DNA of 64,000 nt from a virus: positions 1 to 64,000 of the IMG/VR virus record IMGVR_UViG_3300042549_004948; one strand, given 5' to 3'. The notes under the pieces are model-generated. The model did no database searches. It was not told the origin of the DNA and saw nothing but the letters and a program-made list of their open reading frames with translations. This document shows positions 17,602 through 32,151 of this stretch, in pieces. Position 1 is the first letter of the stretch; each line of letters opens with the position of its first letter. Position numbers and translations under genes: made by a program.

Positions 17602-19197
17602 TTATAAAAGCCATGTTAAATCTTCATTCATTTCTCCTTGAGCCGTATGATGTGTCATATTCCAAGGATTTTGATTATATTGATTGTTTGCGTTATATGA
17701 TATAGTGTTATCTTGTGTTTTAGTAAAACTATTTAAAGCTGCGTAAGTTAAGTTTTCTACCGTCTTCTTATATCTTAATGATGTTTCTCTCAAATACATT
17801 GCTACAGCAAAACTCATAACAAGATCATCATTATAACTCTGCATGGCTTGAGCTTTACCGTTCTTCCAGATAAACACTCTAAGCTCTTCTAATAATCTAA
17901 CCGATCTTATATTAGCTAGTTTATTTTCTATTGAGTCTCTCATCTTCTCTACAGCTAATGGCCTGGTTTTCTCAGTCATACTAAATCCAGGAACTAGTCC
18001 TGTTTGAGTATTGATTCTATCCACGTATTTTGTAAAGTCCATATTGCTGTCTTGCTTATAACTATAGTGGATATTTGTATATCCTCTTTCTAATACTGTC
18101 TGCACCACATCCCAACCTATATTATTATTTTCTACAACTAGTAGAGCATTATTATATTCAGAGGCTATGCTTAGTAATATATTGGCATAATCTCTTGTAT
18201 CTGGCTGTGACTTATATTCTGCAACCTGGGTAATTGATTCAATTTCAATAACATGAAAAGAAGAATAGTCATTACCGTCTCCGCGTGCAACGTCAGCAAC
18301 AACTGCGTAGTATTTAGTAGGGTCTGGATAATCCCAGATCCATAGCGCTCTGTCAAGCCCTCTTCTTTCAATCGGTTCTGATAACATATTTTCTTCATAC
18401 CAAGTTAGTATTTCTGGTTCTATTACACTATTACCTGAGGTAGCAAAGTCACAATCACATTCTTGCGCAGCATTTCGTTTACCTAATATCTTATCTTGCT
18501 CGTCTCTCCATACTTGATCTCTTTCAGGATGGACAGACCAAGGTAGCGATATCGGCAGAAATTTATTTTGTTGCTCTTGAGCAGACACATATGATTTGTG
18601 AAACCAATTGCCCACACCATTTGGAGTAGATAAAGCTATGCACCCACCACCAGTAGCCAACGTTTGTTGAGCCGCTGTAAAGATCTCCTCAATTCTGTCA
18701 ATGAACGCAGCCTCGTCTATGACTAGGAGTGATACCGCTTCAGAACGACCCGCGTCACCTGCCGCCGACACCGCTTTGATTTGAGAACCATTCGCTAGTC
18801 TAAGACTCAGTCTGTTATCTTCTGATGTTCCTATCTTAAGCCAAGTTGGTAGGTTCTGATAAGCAAATCTTACCTTTGTTACCATGTTCTTGGCGGTATC
18901 TTGCTTAGTCGCAATAATAAGAACATTCTTATCTTTATTGAACAACATTAACCATAAAGAATAAGCAGAAACAAGAGTAGATATACCTAGCTGTCTTGAC
19001 TTATTAATTATAGAGTAGTCATGCTTCTGAAACAATTTTAAAACCTTTTCTTGAAATGGATATAGATTAAAAAACTGCCTTCCTCTTTGTGGGTGTTGGA
19101 TCATATAGTACTTCTTCATGAAGTACACGGGATCCGTGGCACACTTAACAAACTCCTCCTTTATTCTTTCTTTTATCGTTATCTGTTGATCAGACAT
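17602..19197 (-). CDS. gp17: Terminase large subunit, T4 gp17-like
   Basis: 531 residues. ATPase domain: Walker A-like KSRQLGIST (66-74), Walker B LLVIDEAAF (157-165) and a coupling motif ALSTPNG (188-194). Nuclease domain (RNase H fold): VVADVARGDGNDYSSF starting at 299 with D302, VVENNNIGW, and a later acidic NDDLVMSF. It packages concatemeric DNA through the portal and cuts at headful. No small terminase subunit is recognised nearby. It overlaps the next upstream gene by one base. Confidence 0.96.
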   Translation of the reverse strand: MSDQQITIKERIKEEFVKCATDPVYFMKKYYMIQHPQRGRQFFNLYPFQEKVLKLFQKHDYSIINKSRQLGISTLVSAYSLWLMLFNKDKNVLIIATKQDTAKNMVTKVRFAYQNLPTWLKIGTSEDNRLSLRLANGSQIKAVSAAGDAGRSEAVSLLVIDEAAFIDRIEEIFTAAQQTLATGGGCIALSTPNGVGNWFHKSYVSAQEQQNKFLPISLPWSVHPERDQVWRDEQDKILGKRNAAQECDCDFATSGNSVIEPEILTWYEENMLSEPIERRGLDRALWIWDYPDPTKYYAVVADVARGDGNDYSSFHVIEIESITQVAEYKSQPDTRDYANILLSIASEYNNALLVVENNNIGWDVVQTVLERGYTNIHYSYKQDSNMDFTKYVDRINTQTGLVPGFSMTEKTRPLAVEKMRDSIENKLANIRSVRLLEELRVFIWKNGKAQAMQSYNDDLVMSFAVAMYLRETSLRYKKTVENLTYAALNSFTKTQDNTISYNANNQYNQNPWNMTHHTAQGEMNEDLTWLL

Positions 19198-19889
19198 TAT
19201 TTATGTGTTACAGCAAGACCTATTACTAAAGCTCCAAGTACAAACTTTTGTATTTTACCCATTTTCATTCTTCTATCAAACTTCTTGATGTCTCCTTTTA
19301 AGCCATCAATTTGAATTTTATAGTTTTGCCCTTGCTCTATTTGTTTTTGTATAATTGATTGATAATTAGTTTCTTTTTGTCTAAAAACTGTAATTACTTG
19401 ATCTCTATTATTAAGAGACTGGGCTTGGGTTTGAATTACACTGTCTTGCGCAATTACTATTTTCTCATTCACCTCTCCTTCTTTTAAATCAACTACTACA
19501 GCCTTACTAACTTCAATAGGTAACATTGTAGTGTCACTAGAAACTTTATCATATTCCTCTTTATATGTAGCTACAAAGAAACTATCAACTTGAGTTGGTG
19601 TATAAGATAAAGCATCTTTAGCATCTTTTAAATCATCTTTAAGATCTTTTACCTTATCCTTTAAATATACGACTTTTTCTGCTAAATAATCATTATCTTT
19701 TTCTAGTACGCTAATTCCTATTTCTAGAGTATCATTTACTAAATGAATAGAGTCAATGTTTTGTTGAAGTGAGTCTATCTTTGCTTCATAGGGTTTGGTA
19801 TCAAATCTTTTTGGTTGTAAGATAAAAATATACCAGATGGCTAATAATGCTAATAAGGCTAATGCTGTACTAAATACTATCTTCTTCAT
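19197..19889 (-). CDS. Membrane-anchored coiled-coil protein (possible spanin-like)
   Basis: 230 residues. A hydrophobic N-terminal segment (residues ~4-25, IVFSTALALLALLAIWYIFIL) is followed by a long coiled coil (~38-95, LQQNIDSIHLVNDTLEIGISVLEKDND..) and a second one (~150-205). A short hydrophobic C-terminus (KFVLGALVIGLAVTHK) ends the protein. The N-in anchor plus periplasmic coiled coil resembles an i-spanin, but the C-terminal hydrophobic segment and lack of an o-spanin partner argue for caution. It overlaps the upstream gene by 20 bases. Confidence 0.5.
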   Translation of the reverse strand: MKKIVFSTALALLALLAIWYIFILQPKRFDTKPYEAKIDSLQQNIDSIHLVNDTLEIGISVLEKDNDYLAEKVVYLKDKVKDLKDDLKDAKDALSYTPTQVDSFFVATYKEEYDKVSSDTTMLPIEVSKAVVVDLKEGEVNEKIVIAQDSVIQTQAQSLNNRDQVITVFRQKETNYQSIIQKQIEQGQNYKIQIDGLKGDIKKFDRRMKMGKIQKFVLGALVIGLAVTHK

Positions 19890-20223
19890 CTGAATCTAAT
19901 TTAGGGTTTTCAACTTGGTCTATTTGTTGTTTAAGTAATTTTATTCTATCAGGAATATTACCTACTGCTTTTTTATACCCGCCTACATCTTTCAGTTTTA
20001 GGATACCATCAGCATCTCTTTCAGTATACTTTGCTAGAATAGATTTTACTTGAGCTTGTAGATTTTGTAGCTCTTTTTTCTTCTTGTCAAGTCCTCTAAA
20101 GTCTTTTTCAGATTTTTTAAGGTCTGTTGTTGAAGGTTCTATATCATCTTCTGCCTCTTCTCTAATTTTAGAGATGATAGTAAGATTGTTCTCTGTTAAA
20201 TATTTTTCTAAGTTAAACGACAT
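19870..20223 (-). CDS. Small helical protein with LTE leader (candidate internal protein)
   Basis: 117 residues. It begins MSFNLEKYLTE-NNLTIISKIREEAEDD: an 11-residue leader ending in LTE resembles the capsid-targeting peptides of the genes upstream (acidic at 6, YL before xE). The rest is a charged coiled coil (KKSEKDFRGLDKKKKELQNLQAQVKSILAKY) with an acidic end. An ATATTTAT motif sits 16 nt before the ATG. Function unknown. Packaging into the head is an inference from the leader. Confidence 0.5.
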   Translation of the reverse strand: MSFNLEKYLTENNLTIISKIREEAEDDIEPSTTDLKKSEKDFRGLDKKKKELQNLQAQVKSILAKYTERDADGILKLKDVGGYKKAVGNIPDRIKLLKQQIDQVENPKLDSDEEDSI

Positions 20224-20239
20224 ATTGGTCTATTTACTT

Positions 20240-20247
20240 ATAAATAT
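20240..20247 (-). promoter_or_regulatory. ATATTTAT motif before gene at 20223
   Basis: Sense-strand ATATTTAT lies 16 nt upstream of the ATG at 20223 in the 27-bp spacer. Confidence 0.45.
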
Positions 20248-20250
20248 TTA

Positions 20251-20496
20251 TTAATCCTGTAAATCGTCTTCTGATTTTACCCTTCTTAGTGGCCTAGATA
20301 ATTCTAACCATTTATCATAGTCGTACTTGATACCAAATAAATAGTATTCATCTGGCTTATTATGTCCTTTTAGATACATGATCGCGGGTCCGGTTGGACA
20401 GTGGGGTTTTACGATACCTTTATCGTCTTCGTAGATTTTAAGTATAATATTCTCTACTGTCTTAATAGTTCTATACTGCGGTTCTTTTTTAGCCAT
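20251..20496 (-). CDS. Small hypothetical protein
   Basis: 81 residues, unrecognised. Beta-rich with basic and aromatic residues (GPAIMYLKGHNKPDEYYLFGIKYDYDKWLELSRPLRR). The segment PTGPAIMYLKGH..YYLFGIKYDYDKWLELS resembles small MORN/anti-repressor-like phage proteins that combine a Y.L.G..Y....W pattern, but I cannot name a family. No capsid-targeting leader is present. It sits alone between two short spacers in the leftward operon. Confidence 0.5.
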   Translation of the reverse strand: MAKKEPQYRTIKTVENIILKIYEDDKGIVKPHCPTGPAIMYLKGHNKPDEYYLFGIKYDYDKWLELSRPLRRVKSEDDLQD

Positions 20497-20539
20497 AGAC
20501 TTAATTTATGATCAATATACAATAAAAATATAAACTAAA

Positions 20540-22066
20540 TTAATTAAAGTCTATAGTATTATCAAATTCTATATCGCTATCTTGTAAAGTATCTCCAAAT
20601 AAAAATTTAGTAAGAGAATATACTCCATTATCTATATAATCTTTAACTTTGTAAATATATGATTTTATAGTATCCATAACCCCTTCTTTTAGTTTAGTTG
20701 GATCTGATATTAAAGAAACAACGCTCCAAAATCTATATCTTCCTGTTTTTTCTCCTTTTAGTTTTTCAGAAGATGATTTAAATCTTACAGTTAATTTCAT
20801 CTGATCTGCTATCTTTGCTGCGTATCCTGAATTTTGAGTAGAATGCAATTTAGGGCTAGATAAATCTGGACTTACTGATAATACGTAATCAGCTGATGCA
20901 TCACTATTAGAACCAAATTTTTCATATCCTGACATTGCCTCTTGAGCAAACGCTATTTTAAATTCTGGGCTTTTATTAAAAAGATCTTCTAATTTACTAG
21001 ACATTTCTTTGTGGGCTTTATCTCCTGCCGTGAGCATTTTATTTTTACCTGATTTTAATCCAGCTTCTACTGCTCCAGATTTTGTATATCCTACTTCAAT
21101 AAATTTGTCAAATGTATCTAATACGGCTTTAGCTTCATCCGTCTCTAAAATACCAGGAACTTTTTTTGCCGCAGCATAGAAAGTAGCGACAGATTCATTT
21201 TTTCCTCCGGACATTAATTGAGAGTTTCCTACTTTTACAGATATCTTTTTATTTCCTAAAATAACATCTGTTTTAGGAGTTGTATTACTGGCTCCTTGAA
21301 TTTTCCAAAATTCAGTTAGTGTAGCTTTTTCTCCAGTTCTTCCTGTAGCTCTAGCAGATTTACCTTTTTGCAATCCTAAATCAATTATAGCCTCTTCAGC
21401 TTTTTTTACCATTGTTTTATTAGACTTCAGTTTGCTTAATTCATCTGGTAGTATTGCTCCTTTTGGAACAGGTATTCCATTGACTTTATACCAAGCATAA
21501 ACAAGAGCAGACTCAAATAAAGTTGCCTGTCCTGTTTCAGCCTCTTTCAATATAGCTTCTAATATTCTTGATTCTGTTAACTCCTCTCCGCCTTCTGGTT
21601 CAGATGTTTCTGATGGAGGTGTTGGTCCTGCTTCTTCTGTAGGACCTTCTTGATCTCTAGTAGCTTGTTCAGAACCTTCAGGACCTTTGGTCTTTAAAGG
21701 ATTTCCGTTCCTCAATATTCTTGAGATGGCAACCATGCATCTTTCTTTCTCGCCAATTGACATCAAATAATACTTCTTACCCTGAACAGTTGCTTCATAA
21801 GCCTTTCCCATGAACTGTAAAAAGAAGAATTCTCCATTATGAAGAACTACTTTAAATGTAGTTGGCTTAGGTGCTACTACATAAATTCCGGTTATATACT
21901 CCTCAAATGAAGGAGTCATTAAATACTCTAATGTATTCTTAAGACCTGCATATTTTTTCAATATAAACTGCATAGGATCATCCTCAAATGTAGAGGTTTC
22001 TGGCTCCATCCTATCTAACTCTTGTAAGAGTATAGTCTTTAGTATATCATGTTTTGACACAGGCAT
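20540..22066 (-). CDS. Large candidate virion protein, possible nuclease-like fold
   Basis: 508 residues. N-terminus MPVSKHDILKTILLQE-LD resembles the [LI]xE leaders nearby. Residues 30-120 form one domain, then a Pro/Glu/Gly-rich linker (~128-165). A second [LI]xE cluster follows (ESRILE170-AILKE175-AETG). Residues 262-288 read TTPKTDVILGNKKISVKVG then NSQLMSGG. The D..(8)..S-V-K arrangement is reminiscent of PD-(D/E)XK nucleases but lacks the usual acidic residue. I recall similar T.TD....G...S.K....QLMSGG proteins in other large phages without known function. It is possibly packaged and cut between domains by gp21. Confidence 0.55.
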   Translation of the reverse strand: MPVSKHDILKTILLQELDRMEPETSTFEDDPMQFILKKYAGLKNTLEYLMTPSFEEYITGIYVVAPKPTTFKVVLHNGEFFFLQFMGKAYEATVQGKKYYLMSIGEKERCMVAISRILRNGNPLKTKGPEGSEQATRDQEGPTEEAGPTPPSETSEPEGGEELTESRILEAILKEAETGQATLFESALVYAWYKVNGIPVPKGAILPDELSKLKSNKTMVKKAEEAIIDLGLQKGKSARATGRTGEKATLTEFWKIQGASNTTPKTDVILGNKKISVKVGNSQLMSGGKNESVATFYAAAKKVPGILETDEAKAVLDTFDKFIEVGYTKSGAVEAGLKSGKNKMLTAGDKAHKEMSSKLEDLFNKSPEFKIAFAQEAMSGYEKFGSNSDASADYVLSVSPDLSSPKLHSTQNSGYAAKIADQMKLTVRFKSSSEKLKGEKTGRYRFWSVVSLISDPTKLKEGVMDTIKSYIYKVKDYIDNGVYSLTKFLFGDTLQDSDIEFDNTIDFN

Positions 22067-22069
22067 AAT

Positions 22070-22546
22070 TTATTTTCTCTTCTTTTTACCTTTACCTATT
22101 TCCATTAAACTTTGAAGACTCATCTCCATATCTTCTGCATCTCCGGCTGGTAGTTCTTCTGTTCCATCAGGAAGTTCATCCATATCATGTTCGCCTCCAT
22201 TATATTCATGGTAGTTTTTAGAAGCTTGATTAATAAAGTTCTCGGCATTTGTAATATGATCTTGAATCCAAGCAGGAACGTCTTTCTCATCTTGGCCTAA
22301 CAAGTTCATTAATTGACTTGCCGAACTTATAATAGACTTAAGACTATTCTGAGCCATTGACACTTCATGGTCTTGGCCTTCACCTTCTTTCTTCATGCCT
22401 TTCTTTGCACGAAGTGCTTTAAAGTCAGCAGCTGTTATTTTATCTTTTGGTTCTGCAGCTCCTGCAATTTTTTCTTGATTTCCAGGAAGGTCTTTTTCGT
22501 TTAGCTCTCTCATTAAGATAGCTTTAAAGAATGCAATACTATTCAT
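22070..22546 (-). CDS. Candidate internal/head protein, hypothetical
   Basis: 158 residues from MNSIAFFKAILMRELNE at 22546. The upstream in-frame ATG (22609) lies inside the previous gene, and the chosen start leaves a 1-nt gap. A short hydrophobic-acidic leader ending in LNE is similar in style to its neighbours' targeting peptides. The body is polar and acidic (EYNGGEHDMDELPDGTEELPAGDAEDMEMS), with a basic end (GKGKKKRK). Function unknown. Confidence 0.5.
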   Translation of the reverse strand: MNSIAFFKAILMRELNEKDLPGNQEKIAGAAEPKDKITAADFKALRAKKGMKKEGEGQDHEVSMAQNSLKSIISSASQLMNLLGQDEKDVPAWIQDHITNAENFINQASKNYHEYNGGEHDMDELPDGTEELPAGDAEDMEMSLQSLMEIGKGKKKRK

Positions 22547-22547
22547 T

Positions 22548-22835
22548 TTATTTTTTCTTTTTAGATTTTTGTGCTCTTTTCCATAACTTAGCATCTGCTT
22601 TTCTAGCACCGCCTTTGCCTGTTATAAAACTATTCACTCTACCCATTCCCCACTGATGTTGACCGGCTCCTGGTCTATGTCCTGTTTTCCAGGCAGCAAG
22701 ACCTAAAGCATATACGCTTTTAAGTATAGATTTAGATATCCCAGAGGCTTTAGCTTTATTTGCTAATCCTTTTTCTACTGCGGCGTCATACTCAAGGAGT
22801 AGTAACTGCTTTAATATATCTAAATTATTTATCAT
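22548..22835 (-). CDS. Small basic candidate internal protein (LLLLE leader)
   Basis: 95 residues. It starts MINNLDILKQLLLLE-YDAAVEKG: an amphipathic leader with DIL and a terminal LLE site. The body is basic, with a Gly/His patch (KTGHRPGAGQHQWGMGRVNSFITGKGG) and the tail KRAQKSKKKK. A basic protein with a cleavable leader fits the picture of T4 internal proteins packaged with DNA. It overlaps the upstream gene by four bases (ATGA). Confidence 0.55.
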   Translation of the reverse strand: MINNLDILKQLLLLEYDAAVEKGLANKAKASGISKSILKSVYALGLAAWKTGHRPGAGQHQWGMGRVNSFITGKGGARKADAKLWKRAQKSKKKK

Positions 22836-23107
22836 TTTTTTTTCTTTTTGTCTAGTTTTTTTTTGACTATCTCTCTAGTTCTATCCATCTTTCTGGCATA
22901 AGCAGGGTCGTCCTTCTTATTAAAGTTGGCTTGTTGATTTAGTGAGCCTGTTATCTTACTCATATTACCTTTTCTAGTTTTGATTAACCAGTTAGCTAAC
23001 TTTTCTGCTGATAACTCTTTAAACTTTCCTTTTGCCTCTGGTGCATTGGAATGCTGAAACTTTAGTCTCTCTTCAAATAACTGTTGTAGTAATTCGTGAA
23101 GCTTCAT
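22832..23107 (-). CDS. Small basic candidate internal protein (LFE leader)
   Basis: 91 residues. Leader MKLHELLQQLFE-ERLKF, then a strongly basic body (KLANWLIKTRKGNMSKITGSLNQQANFNKKDD) with a Lys-run tail (KKKLDKKKKK). The K-E/D-LL-E pattern and the [LI]xE site at residue 12 place it with the putative capsid-targeted set, though its leader is longer than the 10-residue form. It probably binds nucleic acid, given its charge. Confidence 0.55.
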   Translation of the reverse strand: MKLHELLQQLFEERLKFQHSNAPEAKGKFKELSAEKLANWLIKTRKGNMSKITGSLNQQANFNKKDDPAYARKMDRTREIVKKKLDKKKKK

Positions 23108-23649
23108 TACTTTTCTTTTTTACCAAATCTTTTTGCATACGCAATAGTTGCAGCAGACTTTCTAGTCTTATACTTCTTTGTTTTATCTTTATCTATATAA
23201 TCGGCATCCCATTTACCATAAGCTGCAGGATCATCTGATTTTAGGTTCTTTCTTGCTTTTATATCTTTTTTCATCTGCGCAGCATCTTTAGTAAGATATG
23301 CAGCATTAACCTTACCTGTTTTCTTTGCCTCACTTATTCTAACACAATTAGGAACCATTCTATTCCCTTTCTTTTTCATACCGTCTTGTCTGTATCCATC
23401 CCAACAAGCCTCGTTTAAATTATGAAGTCCTAGATCTTTTAGTTTCTCATCAAAATCGGCTTTATCCATACCTTGAATAATATCCAAAATAGAATCTATA
23501 GGAGCTTCAGTTTGGCCAGCAAATGCTATTGATATTTCTCTTGCTTTATTAGGATTTCTTTTGTAGGAATCTATAATATTTTGCACTCCCCAATCATTTA
23601 ATCCCATTTCAGAGACCATTTCTTTTAATATGTCTTTTAACTTTATCAT
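23107..23649 (-). CDS. Capsid-targeted candidate, MIKLKDILKE leader, CWDGYRQ motif
   Basis: 180 residues. It begins MIKLKDILKE-M, the 10-residue leader shared with three other genes. Residues ~80-105 carry CWDGYRQDGMKKKGNRMVPNC, a Cys-bounded basic motif that I recall from many phage proteins of unknown function. The C-terminal ~75 residues are very basic (KKDIKARKNLKSDDPAAYGKWDAD..RKSAATIAYAKRFGKKEK). Processing after E10 by gp21 would leave a basic 170-residue protein. It overlaps its downstream neighbour by one base and its upstream neighbour by four. Confidence 0.6.
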   Translation of the reverse strand: MIKLKDILKEMVSEMGLNDWGVQNIIDSYKRNPNKAREISIAFAGQTEAPIDSILDIIQGMDKADFDEKLKDLGLHNLNEACWDGYRQDGMKKKGNRMVPNCVRISEAKKTGKVNAAYLTKDAAQMKKDIKARKNLKSDDPAAYGKWDADYIDKDKTKKYKTRKSAATIAYAKRFGKKEK

Positions 23650-23963
23650 TTGTTTCTTATGATTAGCTCTCCTAATACCTCCATGCGTCCAACTTCACGT
23701 TGAAATTCAATTTGTGTCATATTTAATGATATGCTTTTTAATGTTTTTTCAAATTCTTTCACAGCAGCTTCTTTATCGAATTTACCCTCTTCTGCTTTTT
23801 TATAATAAGGAGCTTTTACTTTAAAATGATGCCATGTTAATAATGACAACCCACCTTTCTCTTCAGCAGTAGCTGCAATTTTAGCAGCGCCTTTAGCACG
23901 AGTAATAGCAAAATTTTCAAATGTTTCTTTTACTTCAGTTAGAATGTCCTTTAACTTAATCAA
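23646..23963 (-). CDS. Capsid-targeted candidate, MIKLKDILTE leader, TTG start
   Basis: 105 residues starting at a TTG (23963). The reading MIKLKDILTE-V reproduces the leader of its neighbours exactly, so the TTG start is supported by homology. The gene overlaps the upstream stop by eight bases. The body is helical and basic (TRAKGAAKIAATAEEKGGLSLLTWHHFKVKAPYYKKAEEGKFDKEAAVKEFEKTLK). No family is recognised. Packaging and cleavage after E10 are inferred. Confidence 0.6.
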   Translation of the reverse strand: MIKLKDILTEVKETFENFAITRAKGAAKIAATAEEKGGLSLLTWHHFKVKAPYYKKAEEGKFDKEAAVKEFEKTLKSISLNMTQIEFQREVGRMEVLGELIIRNK

Positions 23964-24219
23964 TTTTAGTTATTTTAATTTTTAAAGGTCCAGTCCCTTT
24001 AATAGTCCTGTGCCAAATATACTTTGGTATAAATATCGGCCTATCGATTAAAGTTGGGAGCTCGTTGTCTAATTGTACTTGCCAGTCTGTAGATTCTATG
24101 GCCTCTACTATCCTGTCTTCTTGATCTCTATGCCACATGAGTTCAATAGGATCTATATCTTGATCAAAAACCCTAGTAATTGTTTTATTTTCTTGTTGTA
24201 TGTCCTGGTACGGTTTCAT
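23956..24219 (-). CDS. Small conserved phage protein, hypothetical
   Basis: 87 residues. The motif ELMWHRDQEDRIVEAIESTDWQVQLDNELP is characteristic. I recall similar small proteins (WHRD.EDR..E...W..Q.D..LP) in cyanophages and other T4-like phages, without a known role. The first ten residues, MKPYQDIQQE, resemble T4's MKTYQEFIAE in spacing (K2, Y4, Q5, acidic 6, E10) but have Gln at position 8, so cleavage by the [LI]xE rule is doubtful. Confidence 0.6.
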   Translation of the reverse strand: MKPYQDIQQENKTITRVFDQDIDPIELMWHRDQEDRIVEAIESTDWQVQLDNELPTLIDRPIFIPKYIWHRTIKGTGPLKIKITKID

Positions 24220-24823
24220 TTATATCATAGTAATAAGAGTCAGAATCTTCAGATACCCACCTATCAGAAACAGACTCTACATTTAATAGTTCAGTATCTA
24301 CCTTGATCATTTTAGGATCTACAGGAAACTCTTTAGTTATCCAGTTAGAGTCTTTCCAGTATATTCTATTGTTAGGCATACACATCAAATAACCATCGTC
24401 TGCCACTAAAACATGGCCACATTTATAGTCTGATGGTTCGTTTGAATAGGTATTGTTTTGCCAATCTATAGTTATTAAATATGTTGCCCAGACAAGGGTT
24501 TTATCTCTCAACATAACTTTACACCTCTTATCTTTTAGAAAATCGTATTTGATAACTGCCGCATCTGGGCCAAAGCAATCCCATAATTGTTTGAAATAGT
24601 ACGGAATGTCTTTAGTCGGAGGCTTTATGTATATCTCAGAAATAGGAACTCTACTTCTAAGCATGCCATAATCAGTCATCACATGAAATGTAAGTATCTT
24701 AGCATCTGCAGATTGAACTCCAAAAGCATAACAATTGTGAAAGACATTATCGTCTTTTATATTTTTTGTAAAGTAAGATTGCTTAACAAGGCATTTAAAG
24801 CCTTCTATATTATAGTTTAGCAT
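24185..24823 (-). CDS. Hypothetical protein, beta-rich
   Basis: 212 residues, no recognised family. It has many aromatic and Cys residues (HNCYAFGVQSADAKILTFHVMTDYGMLRSRVPISEIYIKPP; QLWDCFGPDAAVIKYDFLKDKRCKVMLRDKTLVWATYLITIDWQNN) and a GHVLVADDGYLMCMPNNRIYWKDSNW segment that looks like a small beta domain. It overlaps the downstream gene by 35 bases. From memory, phage proteins with VPISE..... and QLWDCFS/G segments occur in cyanophages, function unknown. Confidence 0.55.
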   Translation of the reverse strand: MLNYNIEGFKCLVKQSYFTKNIKDDNVFHNCYAFGVQSADAKILTFHVMTDYGMLRSRVPISEIYIKPPTKDIPYYFKQLWDCFGPDAAVIKYDFLKDKRCKVMLRDKTLVWATYLITIDWQNNTYSNEPSDYKCGHVLVADDGYLMCMPNNRIYWKDSNWITKEFPVDPKMIKVDTELLNVESVSDRWVSEDSDSYYYDINETVPGHTTRK

Positions 24824-24840
24824 AACTCTGTCCTAATTTA

Positions 24841-25347
24841 TTAAAGTTTAATAGGAGCATAACCAGATCCATATGGAGCAGCTTTGCCTGATTGTGGATC
24901 TGATGTTTCTTTTATTTTATTTAAACGCTGTGTTTTTTCTTTAGATGCTTCTTTACGTTTTTCTATATATTCTAAAGCTTTTTTTAATCTGCTTTTAACT
25001 TCAGGATTCTTAGAGTTTTTATAAGCCGCTCTAACTCTTTGATGTACAAGATTTATAATCTGTGATTGTCTAGCGTGAGATTTTGATTTAAAATCACTTT
25101 TAGATAACGTGTCTCTTATATCTTGAACAGTCTTAAATTTTACCTTAACAGTATCTTTAGGATTCTCATCTGTGTAAAGCCTTCTATCAGATCCTTTTGG
25201 TTTTTTTCCTGTTCCTTTTTTAGGATCTGCTTCAGTTATATCAGGATCATTAGTCCAGGTATCAGACGCTTTGTATCTAACCTTCTTAACCATATTTGCT
25301 CTATATGGTGGATACATCTCATTTAATATGTCAATTAGTTTTATCAT
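24841..25347 (-). CDS. Capsid-targeted candidate, MIKLIDILNE leader
   Basis: 168 residues. MIKLIDILNE-M is followed by a basic, mostly disordered region (YPPYRANMVKKVRYKASDTWTND; KKGTGKKPKGSDRRLYTDENP) and a helical basic domain (KSHARQSQIINLVHQRVRAAYKNSKNPEVKSRLKKALEYIEKRKEASKEK). The Lys/Arg content is high throughout, as in T4 internal proteins that enter the cell with DNA. No domain is recognised. It is the second member of the exact 10-residue leader group in transcription order. Confidence 0.6.
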   Translation of the reverse strand: MIKLIDILNEMYPPYRANMVKKVRYKASDTWTNDPDITEADPKKGTGKKPKGSDRRLYTDENPKDTVKVKFKTVQDIRDTLSKSDFKSKSHARQSQIINLVHQRVRAAYKNSKNPEVKSRLKKALEYIEKRKEASKEKTQRLNKIKETSDPQSGKAAPYGSGYAPIKL

Positions 25348-25350
25348 ATA

Positions 25351-26196
25351 CTACCAAAATCCTGAGAAGTTGGATTTCAACCCTATTAGTTTTGCATATC
25401 TTGGAAGCCTACAAGACCAATACCTTGCGCTTGTTTTATCTTTAGCTTGTGCACATTTATGTCTTGCTGCAAAACTCTTTCTTGCTGCTGGATTATTAAT
25501 CTTAGCAGACAATCCTGATGTATCTCCGAATGATACTTTTTTTATACCGCCATCTGGCTTGCGTACATAAACGTAGAACTTCTTTGAACCTCCACGCTTT
25601 GGCTTATTTAATTCAGGTTGTTTCTTTTTCGCTTTTACTTCTAACAAAAAGTCAATAGTCATCGGGAAATCAAGAGGTACTTTTACCCCATTATACTGTC
25701 CACAATTTCCTAGTTCTGTATTCTTAAAGTACCAACTGTCTTGTTCTGATAGTTGTAATTTCCCACTATCATATAAAGATCTAGCCTCTTCAAATAGCTC
25801 AAGAAATTTTGTTGATTGAGGGCGGTAAATTGATTCGTTAAGATCAATCTTATTTTGTAAGTGATAGTTAAGCCCTTCTGATATTAATAGTCTATTAGCT
25901 GTTTCATGAAGCTGAATTTGTCTTGAACAGCAATCTTCATTTAAACTATTGTTTGTACCACATTTATGACAAATATAAGGATCTTTTCCTCCATCAGATA
26001 GTTTCCATTCCCAACCACAATTTTTACATTTGATCATTTCTGCTTCTTCAAGACCTGCCTTAACTAATTTATCATAGTATTTAGGATCTTCTTTAATATG
26101 ATCCATAGCAATTTTTAAAGCCACTTTTGGATCATTAGTATGTTCCATTTCAACTTTAACGCCTTTCTTGATTTGCTTAAGTAAGGCCTTATCCAT
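25351..26196 (-). CDS. Multidomain head-associated protein with zinc ribbon
   Basis: 281 residues. N-terminal ~45: GVKVEMEHTNDPKVALKIAMDHIKEDPKYYDKL, resembling the DUF5661-type helical domain. Residues 57-79 form a four-Cys zinc ribbon (C57, C60, C76, C79). The middle has many [LI]xE sites (ISE, LNE, LSE, LLE). C-terminal ~210-265 (KKFYVYVRKPDGGIKKVSFGD..RKSFAARHKC..K..ARYWSCRLP) is the DUF5872-type domain found in many T4-like phage proteins. The domain names are from memory. It may be processed by gp21 into separate parts. The role is unknown. Confidence 0.65.
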   Translation of the reverse strand: MDKALLKQIKKGVKVEMEHTNDPKVALKIAMDHIKEDPKYYDKLVKAGLEEAEMIKCKNCGWEWKLSDGGKDPYICHKCGTNNSLNEDCCSRQIQLHETANRLLISEGLNYHLQNKIDLNESIYRPQSTKFLELFEEARSLYDSGKLQLSEQDSWYFKNTELGNCGQYNGVKVPLDFPMTIDFLLEVKAKKKQPELNKPKRGGSKKFYVYVRKPDGGIKKVSFGDTSGLSAKINNPAARKSFAARHKCAQAKDKTSARYWSCRLPRYAKLIGLKSNFSGFW

Positions 26197-26567
26197 TATT
26201 GTAAAAATTTAAGCTTATACTTTGTAGATTCAATAAGATCAACGATCTCATCTACTTGATTTTGTATGTAAGAATCCTGAGGTATTTGTTTTCTGATACC
26301 TTCAACGAATTTAGAAAGACCGTCAAAATACATTCTAGCATTATTGTCTTCTCTGATAGTATCGGCCATTCTATAGCCAGTTATAATACCATAGCGTCCT
26401 TGAATACCTTCAGCTAAGCCGTCTATTTTATCTACAATCTCATCGTAGTATTTATTTAAAGCTTTGTGGGCTGCATAAGATCCAACTCCTTGTACTTGAA
26501 GGTGGTATATATGAGCTTGATTTCTGCTCTGCATTAATGTTCCTAAAAGTAGTCCTACTGATTCCAT
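26196..26567 (-). CDS. Ferritin-like / DUF5856-type helical protein
   Basis: 123 residues, all helical. The pattern LLGTLMQSRNQAHIYHLQVQGVGSYAAHKALNKYYDEIVDKIDGLAEGIQGRYG resembles Dps/ferritin-like four-helix proteins (H..H..., AHKAL..YYDEI.D.ID.LAE) and the phage DUF5856 family as I remember it. Whether metal ligands are complete is unclear. It overlaps the next gene by one base. It may be a virion or DNA-protection protein. The function is unproven. Confidence 0.6.
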   Translation of the reverse strand: MESVGLLLGTLMQSRNQAHIYHLQVQGVGSYAAHKALNKYYDEIVDKIDGLAEGIQGRYGIITGYRMADTIREDNNARMYFDGLSKFVEGIRKQIPQDSYIQNQVDEIVDLIESTKYKLKFLQ

Positions 26568-27202
26568 TACTTTTCTTTTTTATCTTCTGCTTTTGCTATT
26601 TGTTTCTTAGATTTTTCAATCTTTTCCATCTTGGTCATAAGATCATCGATCTGTCCTGCTATCTTTGCAATGCCCTCTTTATGTTTAGAAGCATTCTTAG
26701 GATCTTCTTTAGCCATATCAACATGCTCCTTACGCTTCTTTTCTAGTTGATCGATAACCTTCTTGAGTTTATCTCCAACTTTACCTTTCTTTTCTTCTAG
26801 TTGTAAAGCTTCATCACAATATGCTTTATACGCTTCTACAGCGATTCTTCTTGCTTCTGTTTCATCGTCATGTACTGAATAAACATCATGCATTCCTATT
26901 CCTTTTTCTTGAATTCCCATTAAAGGGTTGATCTCAAGAACCATATCAGATTCTGGAAGTTCACCGGAAGGCTTACGAACAACATACATACTAGGAGTTC
27001 CCATGTTTTCTTTCTTAGTCTTTTTAACTTTTTTAGGTAGGCCTTTATGTTTAGTTGAGGCAAAATCTTCTACGTCTCCTTTTTTCATTGATTTAGCCAT
27101 TTCTTTTGCTTTTTCTGATGCTTTTCCGGGTTTCATATCTCCTGTTTGTAAGGCTCTAACGATACCCATTAATTTTTGTTGTTGTTGAGATGTAGCTGGC
27201 AT
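26567..27202 (-). CDS. DUF3008-type N-terminus plus charged coiled-coil protein
   Basis: 211 residues. The first ~50 (MPATSQQQQKLMGIVRALQTGDM..GKASEKAKEMAKSMKKGDVEDFASTKHKGLP) match the DUF3008 pattern MPAxSxxQQxLMG..A...G, seen in phage and bacterial proteins of unknown role. Residues ~70-145 form a small mixed domain (MYVVRKPSGELP..MVLEINPLMGIQEKGIGMHDVYSVHDDETEARRIAVEAYKAY). The C-terminal ~70 is a Lys/Glu coiled coil. It is preceded by an ATATTTAT motif. Confidence 0.6.
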   Translation of the reverse strand: MPATSQQQQKLMGIVRALQTGDMKPGKASEKAKEMAKSMKKGDVEDFASTKHKGLPKKVKKTKKENMGTPSMYVVRKPSGELPESDMVLEINPLMGIQEKGIGMHDVYSVHDDETEARRIAVEAYKAYCDEALQLEEKKGKVGDKLKKVIDQLEKKRKEHVDMAKEDPKNASKHKEGIAKIAGQIDDLMTKMEKIEKSKKQIAKAEDKKEK

Positions 27203-27216
27203 ATACTCTAAATTTA

Positions 27217-27795
27217 CTAATAAATATCCTTGTTCTTCAGTTCTTCTATTTTCTTTTTAACCTCGTCGTACATCTTAGCCTTATCTCCGCCAGACCAGGA
27301 TTCTATATCTCCTGCCTCTGAAACAAATGTATCTTTATCTAACATCCATGATTCTACTGCCTGTTCAAACTCTTCTAGGCTAGCGTTCTTATTGGCATTT
27401 ATAACATTTTTGGCGTATTCATCCCATTTGCCTTCTAGCTTTATTTTACTTTCCATATCTACCACACAATCTAAACACATCTTATGAATAGAGAACATCT
27501 TCTTATTGAGATCATTGTCTTTCATTGACTTTTTACAACTAGGACAACATAGAGGTAGGTGAACTAAGTACTTGAATTTGTCTAACTTCGTAATGGACTG
27601 TTTGATGTTATTCTTTATAGTCCAGACTTTGCCATTCTCTTCCCAGGTGTCTCCTTCTTTATGCTCATCTTTTTTATTTTCCCAACCTCCAATTATTTGA
27701 GTCCTATCACCAGATTTACCTGTTATTAGGTTTCTCATTCTTTGAACATCACTTTTCTTAAACTCTTTCTTCAGCGTAGACTCTTTAGGTATCAT
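27217..27795 (-). CDS. Conserved zinc-binding phage protein, hypothetical
   Basis: 192 residues. The N-terminus has KSDVQRMRNLITGKSGDRTQIIGG, then EGDTWEENGKVWTIKNNIKQSITKLDK. Two Cys pairs (C84..C87 in CPSC, C107..C110 in CLDC) with flanking IHKMCLDCVVDMESKIK likely bind zinc. From memory this whole pattern is well conserved in T4-like phages of marine origin, always uncharacterised. It lies between the zincin-HAD fusion and the DUF3008 gene. Confidence 0.65.
   Translation of the reverse strand: MIPKESTLKKEFKKSDVQRMRNLITGKSGDRTQIIGGWENKKDEHKEGDTWEENGKVWTIKNNIKQSITKLDKFKYLVHLPLCCPSCKKSMKDNDLNKKMFSIHKMCLDCVVDMESKIKLEGKWDEYAKNVINANKNASLEEFEQAVESWMLDKDTFVSEAGDIESWSGGDKAKMYDEVKKKIEELKNKDIY
27220..27227 (-). 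promoter_or_regulatory. ATATTTAT motif before gene at 27202
   Basis: Sense-strand ATATTTAT lies 17 nt upstream of the ATG at 27202. It overlaps the final codons and stop of the preceding gene. Confidence 0.4.
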
Positions 27796-27797
27796 AA

Positions 27798-28691
27798 CTA
27801 CTTTATTCTAAATTTACTTAATATATCTTTTGTTTTATTAATATCTTTATGCAATATTGAAATACCTCCCAGAGCTTTCCATGGAGCCAAGTTTGGCCAA
27901 TAGTCATCTATTAGCATAGAGTTCTTTGGATCTGAAGTTAGATATTCATGCTTATTTCCTGTTTGGGCAAATAATATTTTCTTTGGTTGTGGATTAAGAT
28001 TTTTTTCTACCCATATCTTCTTTCCTTCTTTTGCATATAAAAACTTACTAGGACTAGTTAGAATGATAGGTCTATATTTACCTATAATAGACCAAAGTTC
28101 TTGACCTCCAGGCATCCAATTCATCTTGCTCCAGAATTCAACACCAGCCTCATTTACGGCATCTTCAAATCCTTTAGCTCCTTTTTCTCCTCTATATTCC
28201 ATAGGCATAACTCCATAATAATGTTCAAATCTATCATCAAAATCGCAGAGAACTCCATCCATATCACAATAGATTTGTATTCCTCTTGAATCTTGTGCTT
28301 CGTATATCTGCTTAAGGGATGGCATTAAATGCTCATAGATCATGTCGTGATTCTTACCAAATTCACGCATCATCATTCCTGCTAAAGCATTAGCTTGATT
28401 CTCTATATTTGAGCCAGTCTTTCCAGAATCGGCCACAAGCATATTCAATTCTCTTTGTCTATGATGAACTAATTCGTGGCCTAGAGTTCTAAGTATATCA
28501 GCTAAATTACGATTCCCGGTATATACTTCTAGTCTATTTGTATCAGGAGAATATTGACCAAAACTCTTTCTTTCTACTGCCCACTCGCGATCGTTTGTAA
28601 ATTCTATAATAGGGAGCTTATTAATATTAAGCTGGTCTTTACAAAATTGTATAAACTCTTCAATTATATTTTGTCTTTGTTGATCTATCAT
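27798..28691 (-). CDS. Zincin-like metalloprotease domain fused to HAD 5'-nucleotidase-like domain
   Basis: 297 residues. Residues 1-125: a zincin with HELVHH (H72, E73, H76) inside LRTLGHELVHHRQ, preceded by a strand that reads DTNRLEVYTGNRNLADILR. This resembles the virion zincin domains of large phages. Residues ~137-297: HAD hydrolase with IYCDMDGVLCDFDDRF (D143, D145), ILTSPSK and KNSMLIDDYWPNL, similar to 5'(3')-deoxyribonucleotidases. The linker contains QIYE-AQ, an [LI]xE site where gp21 could separate the halves. Substrates are unknown. Confidence 0.75.
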   Translation of the reverse strand: MIDQQRQNIIEEFIQFCKDQLNINKLPIIEFTNDREWAVERKSFGQYSPDTNRLEVYTGNRNLADILRTLGHELVHHRQRELNMLVADSGKTGSNIENQANALAGMMMREFGKNHDMIYEHLMPSLKQIYEAQDSRGIQIYCDMDGVLCDFDDRFEHYYGVMPMEYRGEKGAKGFEDAVNEAGVEFWSKMNWMPGGQELWSIIGKYRPIILTSPSKFLYAKEGKKIWVEKNLNPQPKKILFAQTGNKHEYLTSDPKNSMLIDDYWPNLAPWKALGGISILHKDINKTKDILSKFRIK

Positions 28692-29278
28692 TTCATTATT
28701 TTCAACAGTCTTCCAAATACATCTTTTGTGACTCCTTTATTATATGCTGCATCTGGTATAAACTTTTCGAACTCTTCGTAATTACCATCTTTTATATATG
28801 ATCTCATTTGAGTTGAGCTAATTCTTTCAAACTGATCTGGTATAATTTCTTTTCTAACTTTATTAGGAAATCTTTTTTGTATAGAATCGAAATACCCTAT
28901 ACCTTCAACTTCTTCTGTTGCGCCGGCAACATAGATAGGGTCTACATCCGGGTTTTCTGCCATGAAAGAGAAGACATCTTTTATAGGAGTCGATTCTTTA
29001 GATATCGATACGCTAATTTTAGGATTAGGTTCTGCATTAAGATACTGTTTCCATATTTGAAAAGAGTCTTCAGCAGTAATGCCATACTTAGTAACATTAG
29101 AAATAATAACATATACTTTATTTATATACGGTTTAGATGCTAAGTATTTTGCTGCTTCAAAGTGTCCTTTATGAGGAGGCTTAAATTTACCAGGATAAAA
29201 ACAAGGTCCTACATCAGAAGACGCTTCTTTTAATATATCTTCGGCTATTTGACGGCCTAATTGTTCTGGATTAATCAT
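28688..29278 (-). CDS. HxGH nucleotidyltransferase (cytidylyl/adenylyltransferase family)
   Basis: 196 residues. Class I nucleotidyltransferase fold: FYPGKFKPPHKGHFEAAKYL with HKGH at 36-39, and ISSTQMRSYI near 153 (the ISST.(I/V)R motif that binds triphosphate). Family members make NAD, CoA precursors, FAD or CDP-alcohols. The substrate here cannot be read. It may be an NMN adenylyltransferase or cytidylyltransferase. The N-terminus MINPEQLGRQIAEDILKE-ASSD carries [LI]xE at E13 and E18, so the enzyme may be packaged. It overlaps both neighbours by four bases. Confidence 0.72.
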   Translation of the reverse strand: MINPEQLGRQIAEDILKEASSDVGPCFYPGKFKPPHKGHFEAAKYLASKPYINKVYVIISNVTKYGITAEDSFQIWKQYLNAEPNPKISVSISKESTPIKDVFSFMAENPDVDPIYVAGATEEVEGIGYFDSIQKRFPNKVRKEIIPDQFERISSTQMRSYIKDGNYEEFEKFIPDAAYNKGVTKDVFGRLLKIMK

Positions 29279-30060
29279 GATTTAATAAAGGATTTAGCTT
29301 TATTCACAACCTGTGACATATCAGATGTTTTTAACTTTTCTACTTGTTTTTCAATGTTATCGAACTGCCCTGATAGAATATCGATTTGTTGGTTTACTAA
29401 CTCTTTAGACTTTGCTATTTCATCCGGAGTTTTTTCTTTAGCTGGGTCTTTTCTAAATGTTGATTTATATTGGCCAGAAGACAGAATATCTTCAAAGTAT
29501 TCTTTTAACTTATCTGCTTTATGAGCCTTTTCAAACTCTCCGACCATTTTCTTTTCCTCTTCAGACATCTCTGTTGGTACTAAATAGAACATATCTCCAA
29601 ACATACTTTTATATGCTTCAATATTTTTGTATATATTATTCCAACTAGATAGTACTCCAACGGTTGGCACCTTTCTTTCTCTTGCGAAGTTACGAAGGAA
29701 GCTAACTATGGGGTTGGTATAAATCATTACCATCATTATATCATAGCCAGAATTTTTTATACCCTCAATTTTTTGTACATTAGTTGCAGTAGTATCATAA
29801 AGAAAATTATCTCCAGCATTTATAACACTTGGAAGATCTACCTTGTCTATTTGAATAGCTGCTCTAGCCAGATTATTATACATTGGACTGTCTTTGTCCT
29901 CTACATACTTGTCTGCATTAAGCTCTCCCCAGCCTGCTTTTTGCAGATCTGGTTTGATTTGTCTAGCAAAATAAGACTTTCCAGCGCCTGCGCCTCCAGC
30001 CATTATAATAGCTTTTTTGCCTTCTTTGGCTTCTAATAATAAGTCTAATAGCTTTATCAT
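29275..30060 (-). CDS. P-loop kinase with MIKLLDLLLE leader (capsid-targeted candidate)
   Basis: 261 residues. MIKLLDLLLE-AKEGKKAIIM is directly followed by Walker A GGAGAGKS (22-29). FLYDTTATNVQKIEGIKNSGYDIMMVMIYTNP and RNFARERKVPTVGVLSSWNNIYKN resemble zeta-toxin/polynucleotide-kinase-type phosphotransferases (lid arginines R..R.R). The C-terminus is a coiled coil (QQIDILSGQFDNIEKQVEKLK). Cleavage after E10 would leave the kinase intact. Target may be a nucleotide, RNA 5' end or UDP-sugar. An ATATTTAT motif lies 7 nt upstream. Confidence 0.68.
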   Translation of the reverse strand: MIKLLDLLLEAKEGKKAIIMAGGAGAGKSYFARQIKPDLQKAGWGELNADKYVEDKDSPMYNNLARAAIQIDKVDLPSVINAGDNFLYDTTATNVQKIEGIKNSGYDIMMVMIYTNPIVSFLRNFARERKVPTVGVLSSWNNIYKNIEAYKSMFGDMFYLVPTEMSEEEKKMVGEFEKAHKADKLKEYFEDILSSGQYKSTFRKDPAKEKTPDEIAKSKELVNQQIDILSGQFDNIEKQVEKLKTSDMSQVVNKAKSFIKS

Positions 30061-30067
30061 ACTACTT

Positions 30068-30075
30068 ATAAATAT
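30068..30075 (-). promoter_or_regulatory. ATATTTAT motif before kinase gene
   Basis: Sense-strand ATATTTAT begins in the stop codon of the nuclease gene and ends 7 nt before the kinase ATG at 30060. It would start the block of putative packaged proteins. Confidence 0.48.
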
Positions 30076-30869
30076 TAATCTACTAACTTAACAGTATTCG
30101 GAAGTGTTAATAGTTCAATTTCTGTCTCTGGATGCATAATTTTATATGTCTCATAGGTATGGAGGAACATATTGAAGTACTCGTCTAAGGTCTTTTTTCC
30201 TTCAATAATCTCCCAACCGGCTCCTTGCATTTTCTTTCCAGACTTATCAGCTCCTCGTTTTGAAGACTTAAGCCATATGATACCGTTACGATCAACCTTC
30301 TCTCCAAACCTTTCTTCATATGCCTTAGTGTAGGCTGACATTTGTAAGTGATAGCTTTCATGAATTGCATTTGACGTTTTGATATCTAGTACCCACCTTT
30401 GATTATCGATCTCTACAAGTAGATCCAATGTTCCTGAGTATTTATGAGTATCGCTAAACATAAACTCTTCTGATAGGATTAGCTTTGGTTTATAAGTTGT
30501 CCAGAAATCGGTAAAAGATAAAATCATTTTCCATACATGGGTATGATAATTAACATGCCCGGTTGATTCAATCCAGCGAATCTCTTCTCCATTCAAGAAT
30601 TTTTCTATTGCTTCATGAACTTGCGTACCTTCATCGCCGGCTCTACGCATAACAATATCAGCATTATGTCCCATATCTTTTATCCATGTTTCAAAGAACT
30701 GACCTTTAGGAAAATAACCCAAGATAGTTGTAACAGACGGATAGAAAACGCCAGGACTGCGTTGATAATACCTAGAGTCGTGCAATGTTATTTGTCTTAA
30801 TTCAGGATCTGTCTCGACAATTCGTTTTAAGAACTTGTCCTTTTGGATGTTCTTAGATTTTTCAATCAT
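30075..30869 (-). CDS. PD-(D/E)XK nuclease, RecB/Cas4-like
   Basis: 264 residues. The motif set is that of the PDDEXK_1/RecB family: GTQVHEAIEKFL (H85), SGTLDLLVEIDNQRWVLDIKTS (D149, D162-x-K164) and YHLQMSAYTKAYEE (Q176, Y180). Such exonucleases in T4-like phages act in replication/recombination or host DNA degradation. It overlaps the primase gene by four bases, so it is co-transcribed with it. The N-terminal SVTTILGYFPKG.FFETWIKD is a common feature of phage members. Confidence 0.85.
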   Translation of the reverse strand: MIEKSKNIQKDKFLKRIVETDPELRQITLHDSRYYQRSPGVFYPSVTTILGYFPKGQFFETWIKDMGHNADIVMRRAGDEGTQVHEAIEKFLNGEEIRWIESTGHVNYHTHVWKMILSFTDFWTTYKPKLILSEEFMFSDTHKYSGTLDLLVEIDNQRWVLDIKTSNAIHESYHLQMSAYTKAYEERFGEKVDRNGIIWLKSSKRGADKSGKKMQGAGWEIIEGKKTLDEYFNMFLHTYETYKIMHPETEIELLTLPNTVKLVD

Positions 30870-31795
30870 AATAGTTGAAGTTTTTTGAAAAGCAAATCAC
30901 CAAAAGATAGTGGCTTCGCATGATGTAATAGTTTTGTCATTTTATCGAAACCTAAATCAGAAGGATCTTTTCCTTCTAACTCTATTAAGTATACTTCTTT
31001 TCCTAAGTTAAGAAGGTTTTGTGAATAATCTAATGCCTCTTTAAGTGCATCTTTGTCTAGTGCTAAATATACTGTTTTTACATCAGACTCTACTAATTTT
31101 AACATGAGTGACTTAGGAATAGTTTTACCAAATAATGGAATTGCGTTTCTTCTTATCGCTATTGCATCAAATATTCCTTCACAAAGTATAATTGGAATAG
31201 ACCAATTTACGAAATACTCTAGACCTACTAACTCTGATTTATTACATGTAGGAGCATCGTACTTCCTACTTGGATCTTGTTCAAAAGATCTAGCTATAAA
31301 ATAGTTAAGTATCCCATCTTTATCGTATGACGGAATTATAACTCTATTTCTATATCTTCCATTTTTACAATATCCCATGCCATATTTTTGTATATCTTGA
31401 GTAGATATACCTCTTCTCTTTAAATAAGCTAGAGCATGTCTACACTCAAGAGATTTATCTGGGTTAGTTAGTGAAATGAATTCTTCTGGAAGGGTTACTT
31501 TATTAGGTTTTGTGGAATCAATCTTAGTATTATCATTCTGGAAATAAGACTTCATCTCTATCAGTCTTTCTGTAGGAGCTTCTATTTTCTTAAATAGTGA
31601 TACAGGCGTTTTACCTTTAGTAGGAGGGTGACAAGTCCAGCAATTATACTGTCCAGATCTAATATTCACTATTAACTTTGGGTTATGGTGCTTACAAACT
31701 GGGCAATAAAATGCATAATCCATTGTGGTTTTTGAACCTTTGCCTCTTCCTAGAACATTTTCCAGAAGGCCTAAAACAAGCATTTCTTTATCCAT
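30866..31795 (-). CDS. DNA primase (zinc finger + TOPRIM)
   Basis: 309 residues. Zinc ribbon C31-x2-C34 .. C52-x2-C55 (YCPVCKHH..YNCWTCH). RNA-polymerase/TOPRIM domain: NRVIIPSYDKDGILNYFIARSF, IILCEGIFDAIAIR with catalytic E206, and VYLALDKDA (~242-250). This is the layout of DnaG/T4 gp61-like primases, shorter than DnaG because no helicase-binding domain is visible. It is the first gene of the leftward transcription unit next to the divergent spacer, and so probably early/middle expressed. Confidence 0.88.
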   Translation of the reverse strand: MDKEMLVLGLLENVLGRGKGSKTTMDYAFYCPVCKHHNPKLIVNIRSGQYNCWTCHPPTKGKTPVSLFKKIEAPTERLIEMKSYFQNDNTKIDSTKPNKVTLPEEFISLTNPDKSLECRHALAYLKRRGISTQDIQKYGMGYCKNGRYRNRVIIPSYDKDGILNYFIARSFEQDPSRKYDAPTCNKSELVGLEYFVNWSIPIILCEGIFDAIAIRRNAIPLFGKTIPKSLMLKLVESDVKTVYLALDKDALKEALDYSQNLLNLGKEVYLIELEGKDPSDLGFDKMTKLLHHAKPLSFGDLLFKKLQLL

Positions 31796-32151
31796 TATCT
31801 AAATATAAGACAAAAAAACGACATAAAAAAATATTTATTAAAAAAAATTTTTTTGTTTCGAATATTTGTTGTATATTAGATTCTGTTAATGTCGTATACT
31901 CAGGATCTATGCCATAGCTTGGTTGAATTCCATGAGTGCGTTTTAGAATGAGTAAGTACTACGACTACCAGGAGCTAAGACTAAGAATAATGCTTCAGGT
32001 ATATAAACATAGTCTAAAGTGAAAGTTTAAAAGAATATCGGTACATCCGACGGTTCAATCCGCTAGGGCTTTTAAATATAAACTAAGATAAAAAACAAAG
32101 TCAATTATCCACTCTAAATATAGGCGAATACCCTATAAAAAATACTATTAA
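31796..32151. other. Divergent intergenic region with promoter-like and structured sequence
   Basis: 356 bp between the leftward and rightward units with no convincing ORF. It contains A/T tracts and a promoter-like element (31845-31882). An inverted pair AGACTA (31978-31983) / TAGTCT (32010-32015) has a 26-nt loop. The near-direct repeats CGGTACATCCG (32039-32049) and CGGTTCAATCCG (32051-32062) follow. The part from about 31900 to 32075 is less AT-rich than the flanks, which suggests a structured RNA or regulatory region. I could not fold it into a tRNA. Early promoters for both directions are expected here. Confidence 0.6.
31845..31882 (+). promoter_or_regulatory. Promoter-like element A (spacer copy)
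   Basis: AAA, seven Ts, GTTTC, 11 nt, GTATATTA. The same layout with identical spacing occurs at 51146-51183 before the glycan cassette. It is probably a host-type (early) promoter for the rightward unit that begins at 32152. The distance to the first ATG (about 270 nt) leaves a long leader. Confidence 0.45.

Follow-up and report, generated by a model that had tools for sequence, protein, structure and literature searches.

Candidate capsid-targeting leaders on unrelated genes of a T4-like phage

A leader-bearing gene block between primase and terminase

The IMG/VR virus record IMGVR_UViG_3300042549_004948 (162,469 bases), the first 64 kb of which were analysed here (the window), represents a T4-like myovirus with a gp23 capsid protein, an S77-family gp21 protease and a terminase, and carries a block of genes for unrelated proteins that begin with a similar short N-terminal leader. 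The minus strand holds every gene from 46 to 31795, including all of those described in this section, and the block is bounded, as originally predicted, by the primase (30866-31795) and the terminase (17602-19197). By translation, four non-homologous genes start with MIKLxD[IL]LxE (class A): 29275-30060 (MIKLLDLLLE, 30031-30060), 24841-25347 (MIKLIDILNE, 25318-25347), 23646-23963 ([TTG]IKLKDILTE, 23934-23963, the start codon being TTG) and 23107-23649 (MIKLKDILKE, 23620-23649). The leader pattern of the original prediction occurs at four gene starts in the 162-kb record, all within the block, against 0.012 expected from internal positions, and chance is excluded as the source of the shared MIKL starts. 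The variant leaders ending in [LI]xE that had been quoted for neighbouring genes were all found by translation and number at least six in the block, including MINPEQLGRQIAEDILKE (29225-29278) on gene 28688-29278, MKLHELLQQLFE (23072-23107) on 22832-23107, MINNLDILKQLLLLE (22791-22835) on 22548-22835, MPVSKHDILKTILLQE (22019-22066) on 20540-22066 and the class B leader MSFNLEKYLTE (20191-20223) on 19870-20223. One leader gene had been overlooked, 22070-22546, where the start of MNSIAFFKAILMRE (22505-22546) was placed using homologues and the stop of gene 22548.

Leaders are present on approximately half of the roughly 20 genes, the remainder being leaderless, which qualifies the proposal that the entire block is a cargo set. 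Nor do the proteins form a family of internal proteins, as they are unrelated and have the leader alone in common. A gp21 homologue, the proposed processing enzyme, is indeed encoded at 11926-12552 (Pfam Peptidase_S77, 6.1e-22; PHROG 207 head maturation protease, 1e-46). The start of the gp23 capsid protein (10647-10679; Gp23, 2.6e-79) is kept in most close relatives, and a second site in the capsid protein, ILENQAKQLVVE/S, is likewise conserved.

The mature proteins behind the leaders, the putative cargos, are diverse. Gene 29275-30060 encodes a zeta-toxin-type P-loop kinase (29275-30030; mature length 251 aa, isoelectric point (pI) 8.4; Pfam Zeta_toxin, 5.2e-10), and the adjoining 28688-29224 a nicotinamide-nucleotide adenylyltransferase-like protein with two weak matches (TIGR00482, 1.1e-5; PHROG cytidyltransferase, 1.5e-6). 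The next gene (27798-28691), which has no clear leader, fuses an N-terminal domain to a 5'(3')-deoxyribonucleotidase (PHROG 2643, 1.3e-25). The cargo of 24841-25347 (24841-25317, pI 10.0) had no PHROG or NCBIfam match, and that of 23107-23649 (23107-23619, pI 9.5) matched weakly to PHROGs without an assigned function. For gene 23646-23963, AlphaFold2 predicts a compact, all-helical cargo of 95 aa (23646-23933; predicted local distance difference test (pLDDT) ~97), preceded by a distinct leader helix of lower confidence (residues 4-10, pLDDT ~72), and the cargo model had no PDB match at E<=0.001. Two small basic cargos follow (22832-23071, 79 aa, pI 10.4; 22548-22790, 80 aa, pI 10.8, with a C-terminus matching PHROG 3041 at 8.6e-11), and the cargo of the overlooked gene (22070-22504) contains a domain, DHEVSMAQNSL...PAWIQDHITNAENFI, conserved amongst its homologues. 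Several of the leader genes in the window have a mature pI of 9.4-10.8. Comparison of the window cargos to PADLOC returned no matches, and a PDB sequence search with the kinase, the adenylyltransferase-like protein and the C-terminal domain of 20540 returned nothing convincing.

Leader classes, exchange and constraint amongst relatives

Leader classes could be recovered without a preset pattern. A comparison of residues 2-12 from one member of each of 551 families (BLOSUM score >=28) identified 643 N-terminal pairs between families; internal windows gave 11-19 such pairs and shuffled N-termini 1-4. Four leader classes (A-D), each ending in [ILV]xE, make up the main clusters, with the patterns MIKLxDILxE (class A), [DN]FDL[RK]K[FY]LxE, MKKSELRxIIREE... 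and RMQxLAGIITE; the class of the 19870-20223 leader was thus obtained de novo. Grouping by pattern assigned a leader to 124 mature families, the consensus of which is partly circular because the families were selected by pattern, and the conclusions rest on the unbiased comparison and on homologues chosen by their mature domain. Pfam matches amongst the 124 families include zeta toxin, ART-PolyVal, GNAT acetyltransferase, nucleotidyltransferase, ParB_N and methyltransferase. A regular expression for class C produced false positives on the terminase (MSDQQITIKERIKEEF) and was tightened.

Homologues gathered from IMG/VR, via either the whole protein or the terminase, reveal different leaders ahead of the same mature domain. 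One family (family 26) has MIKLxxILxE, MDNFDLKKYIAE or a degenerate leader on a single domain, another (family 43) combines one domain with classes A, B and D, and two members of the 23646 family carry the class B leader MDNFDLRKYLAE. Homologues of 22548-22835 start with MISLLKLLLE or MKLTQLLKEIFIKE, relatives of 28688-29278 have other [IL]LxE leaders immediately ahead of the same domain, and in one homologue of 22832 MRLIDILTE replaces the window leader ahead of the same body. The C-terminal domain of 22070 occurs with class A, B-like, C, D and FFK-type leaders, and the deoxyribonucleotidase domain is found bare (MYTIYCDMDGV), after MIKLTDILKE, after MGNLADLLLE or as a fusion. The family of 19870-20223 is more uniform, with a class B leader in 41 of 43 members. 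The boundary between leader and domain in these swaps falls at the Glu, and these comparisons show the leaders to be detachable modules that are interchangeable between proteins.

Residue constraint was determined for homologues of 29275 and 23646 selected on the mature domain irrespective of the leader, with a small bias in the 23646 search, where one of six query peptides contained Glu10. In both families, constraint after Met1 is strongest for positions 4, 7, 8 and 10 as a set, with entropies of 0.85, 1.00, 0.95 and 0.53 bits (29275) and 0.68, 1.16, 0.89 and 0.94 bits (23646); position 2 is close to this set (0.87 and 1.10, respectively) and positions 5, 6 and 9 are variable. Of 55 distinct N-termini among the 29275 homologues, 52 keep the leader with an [LIVMF]xE ending, and the same ending occurs within residues 8-13 in 59 of 60 for 23646. 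The residue three before the presumed cut (P3) is L, I or V. The fixed residues are encoded by synonymously varying codons, and therefore selection acts on the peptide. In the T4 internal protein IPIII, residues 4 and 7 control targeting and residues 8 and 10 control processing, and Asp at position 10 stops processing and leaves targeting intact (Black and co-workers, PMC9026906). The constraint thus peaks at the functional positions of the T4 capsid-targeting sequence (CTS), which bears out the resemblance noted in the original prediction. As controls, the same tools were applied to T4 (IPII/IPIII, MKTYQEFIAE; gp24, MAKINELLRE). Additional [LIVM]xE sites occur shortly downstream of the leader at twofold the background (0.386 vs 0.190).

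The genomic setting of the class A leader is also distinct. Of 386 genes upstream of the terminase in terminase-anchored loci, 33 are class A, compared with none of the 202 downstream genes (p=7e-7), and amongst the families compared none of the primase, exonuclease, terminase, portal, gp21, gp22 or tail genes has such a leader. In records with gp21, all 34 leader matches are on the gp21 strand. Scanning with a DNA pattern for the leader detected at least 120 stretches in IMG/VR, where, among the matches listed, 133 of 151 start an open reading frame (ORF) of >=60 aa. In 257 Gb of prokaryote genomes, the same scan yielded 40 stretches, 18 of them start-like with an ORF of >=60 aa; this frequency is close to chance, which counts against a leader widespread on cytosolic proteins, the outcome that would have spoken against the original prediction. 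Several of these 18 are located on apparent phage contigs, one of which has three leaders, including one on a family known from the phages studied here. Leader-bearing records >40 kb encode an S77 protease in 22 of 42 cases and Gp23 in 20 of 42, and all eight records of >=135 kb encode both gp21 and gp23; one 102-kb record, possibly a fragment, has neither.

Similar starts were noted elsewhere in the source record and in other phages. Outside the window, class A-like leaders occur at 70596-70985 (MIKLIDILLLE) and 71034-72074 (MKLSKILKE, on a protein weakly matching DUF6934), and 64027-65377 and 131992-132765 have class B-like (MAFNFEKYKTNN, MKDFNIAKYLKE) and class D-like (MKQQLNESKRLQQLAGILKE) starts; 132813-134734 encodes a phage GroEL-like chaperonin (Cpn60, 6.3e-59) and a co-chaperonin (Cpn10, 5.9e-19) next to one another. 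In the tail module, gene 37531-37974 starts with the class C-like MGQLDQLRKLIREELRSVIKEELPKILKE, kept in eight of eight relatives. The 484-kb phage LR756508 has, at 29000-40900, more than 10 small genes with starts of the type MKI.E.KLR.IIREE[IL], between portal and protease and beyond. In Pelagibacter phage HTVC008M, zeta-kinase, adenylyltransferase-like and deoxynucleotidase genes are found together (11656-16812) without a MIKL leader (MIPFILKE, MKTLKELLRKK, MKYSAFKAETL). Flavobacterium phage immuto, which infects Flavobacterium sp. LMO8, has a homologue starting MRLLELLRE/AKEAIEDF as well as MENFDLKKFLVE proteins. The best named matches of the terminase are to this phage (56%) and to Microcystis phage Mel-JY01 (54%), and therefore a member of the Bacteroidota is the likely host. 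Elsewhere in the window, gene 13875-14792 and the capsid protein (9003-10679) have the motif GATFT[AP]GTGEQ in common near their N-terminal parts, 46-1950 encodes a tail-fibre-like protein that contains TGSFTGS repeats and carries an S74 intramolecular chaperone at its C-terminus (7.2e-18), and no RNA families or tRNAs were found.

Gene 20540 and its exchangeable domain

On the evidence of its sequence and its relatives, gene 20540-22066 is composed of a leader, a carrier domain, a predicted leader-like site within the chain and a C-terminal domain that is exchanged among relatives. The carrier domain (residues 27-131; 21674-21988), 105 aa in length, is conserved, with 106 matches in relatives, of which 48 have a tail of <60 aa and 43 a tail of >=150 aa. 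The 43 long tails form eight clusters that are mutually dissimilar at E<=1e-3. Between the carrier and the tail, the window protein has the leader-like SRILEAILKE (residues 166-175; 21542-21571) in a disordered linker, and an internal [IL]xE helix often precedes the tails of relatives. In the AlphaFold2 model, the N-terminal leader forms a helix (residues 5-18) of low pLDDT ahead of a beta domain (31-119); residues 124-176 have a pLDDT <50 and contain a second helix (162-173), such that low-confidence leader and internal helices flank the beta domain and precede the C-terminal domain (178-454). This last domain (KTDVIL...KISVKVG; 20540-21541) may possibly have a restriction-endonuclease fold based on the model, the top two Foldseek matches being HinP1I (E 7.1e-3, probability 0.92) and MspI (E 0.089) with low whole-chain template-modelling scores; no sequence match supports a nuclease fold for it.

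Proposed head entry, alternatives and known systems

Leader swapping, residue constraint, co-occurrence and co-orientation with gp21, placement upstream of the terminase, absence from conserved cytosolic and tail genes and near-chance frequency in prokaryotes collectively support capsid targeting, and it is probable that the leaders are CTS-like propeptides that load diverse proteins into the prohead and are cut by gp21, freeing the cargo for injection. Late in infection, the leader would form a short amphipathic helix, hydrophobic at positions 4, 7 and 8, that docks an unrelated protein onto the core of the assembling prohead. Based on the motif, its position and the presence of the gp21 gene, gp21 would then cut behind the Glu that closes [ILV]xE, and the freed cargo, on the model of T4 IPI and Alt, would remain with the packaged DNA and enter the next host. 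Several interchangeable leader classes would serve different proteins, and the cargo families would include zeta-type kinases, NMN-adenylyltransferase-like enzymes, deoxynucleotidases, ADP-ribosyltransferases, acetyltransferases and small basic proteins.

Several observations weigh against this interpretation. The residue after Glu10 (P1') is mostly V, I or A, whereas the capsid sites of this phage continue with S or A, and cleavage exactly after Glu10 is therefore less sure than targeting. The Glu is lost in some homologues (MIKLLEILRG, MIKLVDILNK), and bare deoxynucleotidases sometimes sit in similar gene blocks. The prediction that the cargo would be basic as a class failed, as class A cargo families, unlike the T4 internal proteins, are no more basic than other families overall (p=0.46). 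Class C is the class of least certain meaning, because the conserved tail-module gene 37531 starts similarly, and may signify something else. No virion proteomics for this phage or its relatives was found in the literature.

Some of these points would suit a leader that is never cut and, as a docking helix, recruits proteins to the prohead core or to some other site of late assembly, where they serve as scaffold or core and are not injected. The P1' residues, the few homologues that keep the helix without Glu10 and the separability of targeting from cleavage in T4 (PMC9026906) are all compatible with this, but docking alone leaves unexplained why Glu10 belongs to the most constrained set, and neither the catalytic domains of several cargos nor the excess of downstream [LIVM]xE sites favors it; this alternative is considered unlikely. 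An amphipathic N-terminal helix, and the existence of leaderless relatives of the same enzymes, could also suggest a role unrelated to the head, in which the leader would send cytosolic proteins to a site outside the virion, such as the membrane or a replication compartment, or would adjust translation or stability. Such a role appears quite improbable, as the leaders are tied to phages with gp21 and gp23, to the gp21 strand and to the position upstream of the terminase, are absent from conserved replication genes and near chance in bacterial genomes, and are constrained in their residues and not their codons. Exchange of leaders between genes would further fit recombination at 5' ends, by which the shared start could be a hitch-hiking gene end copied between neighbours with little function of its own. 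Fixation of residues despite synonymous divergence, an entropy minimum at the functional positions of the T4 CTS and the convergence of several dissimilar leader classes on [ILV]xE make this scarcely credible.

Beyond propeptide function in itself, the leaders may constitute a lineage-wide code for head entry, in which at least four interchangeable classes would bring more than 100 families, enzymes included, into the head for injection, and the 20540-family carrier would deliver exchangeable domains, some of restriction-enzyme fold, freed by the prohead protease at the internal leader; this wider proposal is about as likely as not. The T4 CTS is already known, and it is the scale, the leader classes and the carrier that appear to be new; no earlier description of these leaders was found in the open literature. 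As the leader closely matches the tag used for head loading in T4, the likely injected set may be readable from sequence. If so, the first ten residues would suffice to list the injected proteins of many uncultured T4-like phages, mostly without an assigned function, turning 'hypothetical proteins' into a testable class. This would provide a catalogue of candidate enzymes for host takeover and anti-defence in the first minute (ADP-ribosyltransferases, kinases, acetyltransferases, NAD/nucleotide enzymes and possible nucleases), along with new short tags for putting chosen proteins into phage heads.

Like the CTS of T4 (IPI, IPII, IPIII and Alt), the leader is an N-terminal peptide of ~10 residues with hydrophobic positions 4, 7 and 8, an acidic position 6 and Glu10, and sits on sequence-unrelated proteins in phages that encode gp21; the agreement extends to every sequence feature compared apart from the P1' residue. 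The systems differ in that T4 has three internal proteins and Alt, compared to four class A genes in this window and, over the relatives, 124 mature families with a leader, and in that at least four leader classes exist here, with MIKLxDILxE in place of MKTYQEFIAE, a P1' that is mostly V, I or A, and many cargos that are enzymes. No library match named IPI, IPII or IPIII, with which no direct comparison was made. The start of T4 gp24 (MAKINELLRE) is close to both MIKLxDILxE and the capsid start of this phage (MANLVQSLLTE), though gp24 is a shell protein and not an injected cargo, unlike the role proposed here. The ejection proteins of phiKZ and SPN3US also resemble this system, with propeptides on many head proteins cut by a diverged gp21-type protease (PMC9026906); that protease belongs to another branch with a different cut motif. 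Finally, the 20540 family resembles polyvalent proteins and polymorphic toxins (PMC5512222) in joining a conserved N-terminal part to exchangeable C-terminal domains, and the injected ADP-ribosyltransferase, ParB-type and other domains of polyvalent proteins (PMC5512222) overlap the cargo list. Unlike in polyvalent proteins, the swap point here is preceded by a leader-like, potentially gp21-cleavable site, and the cargos are mostly single-domain.

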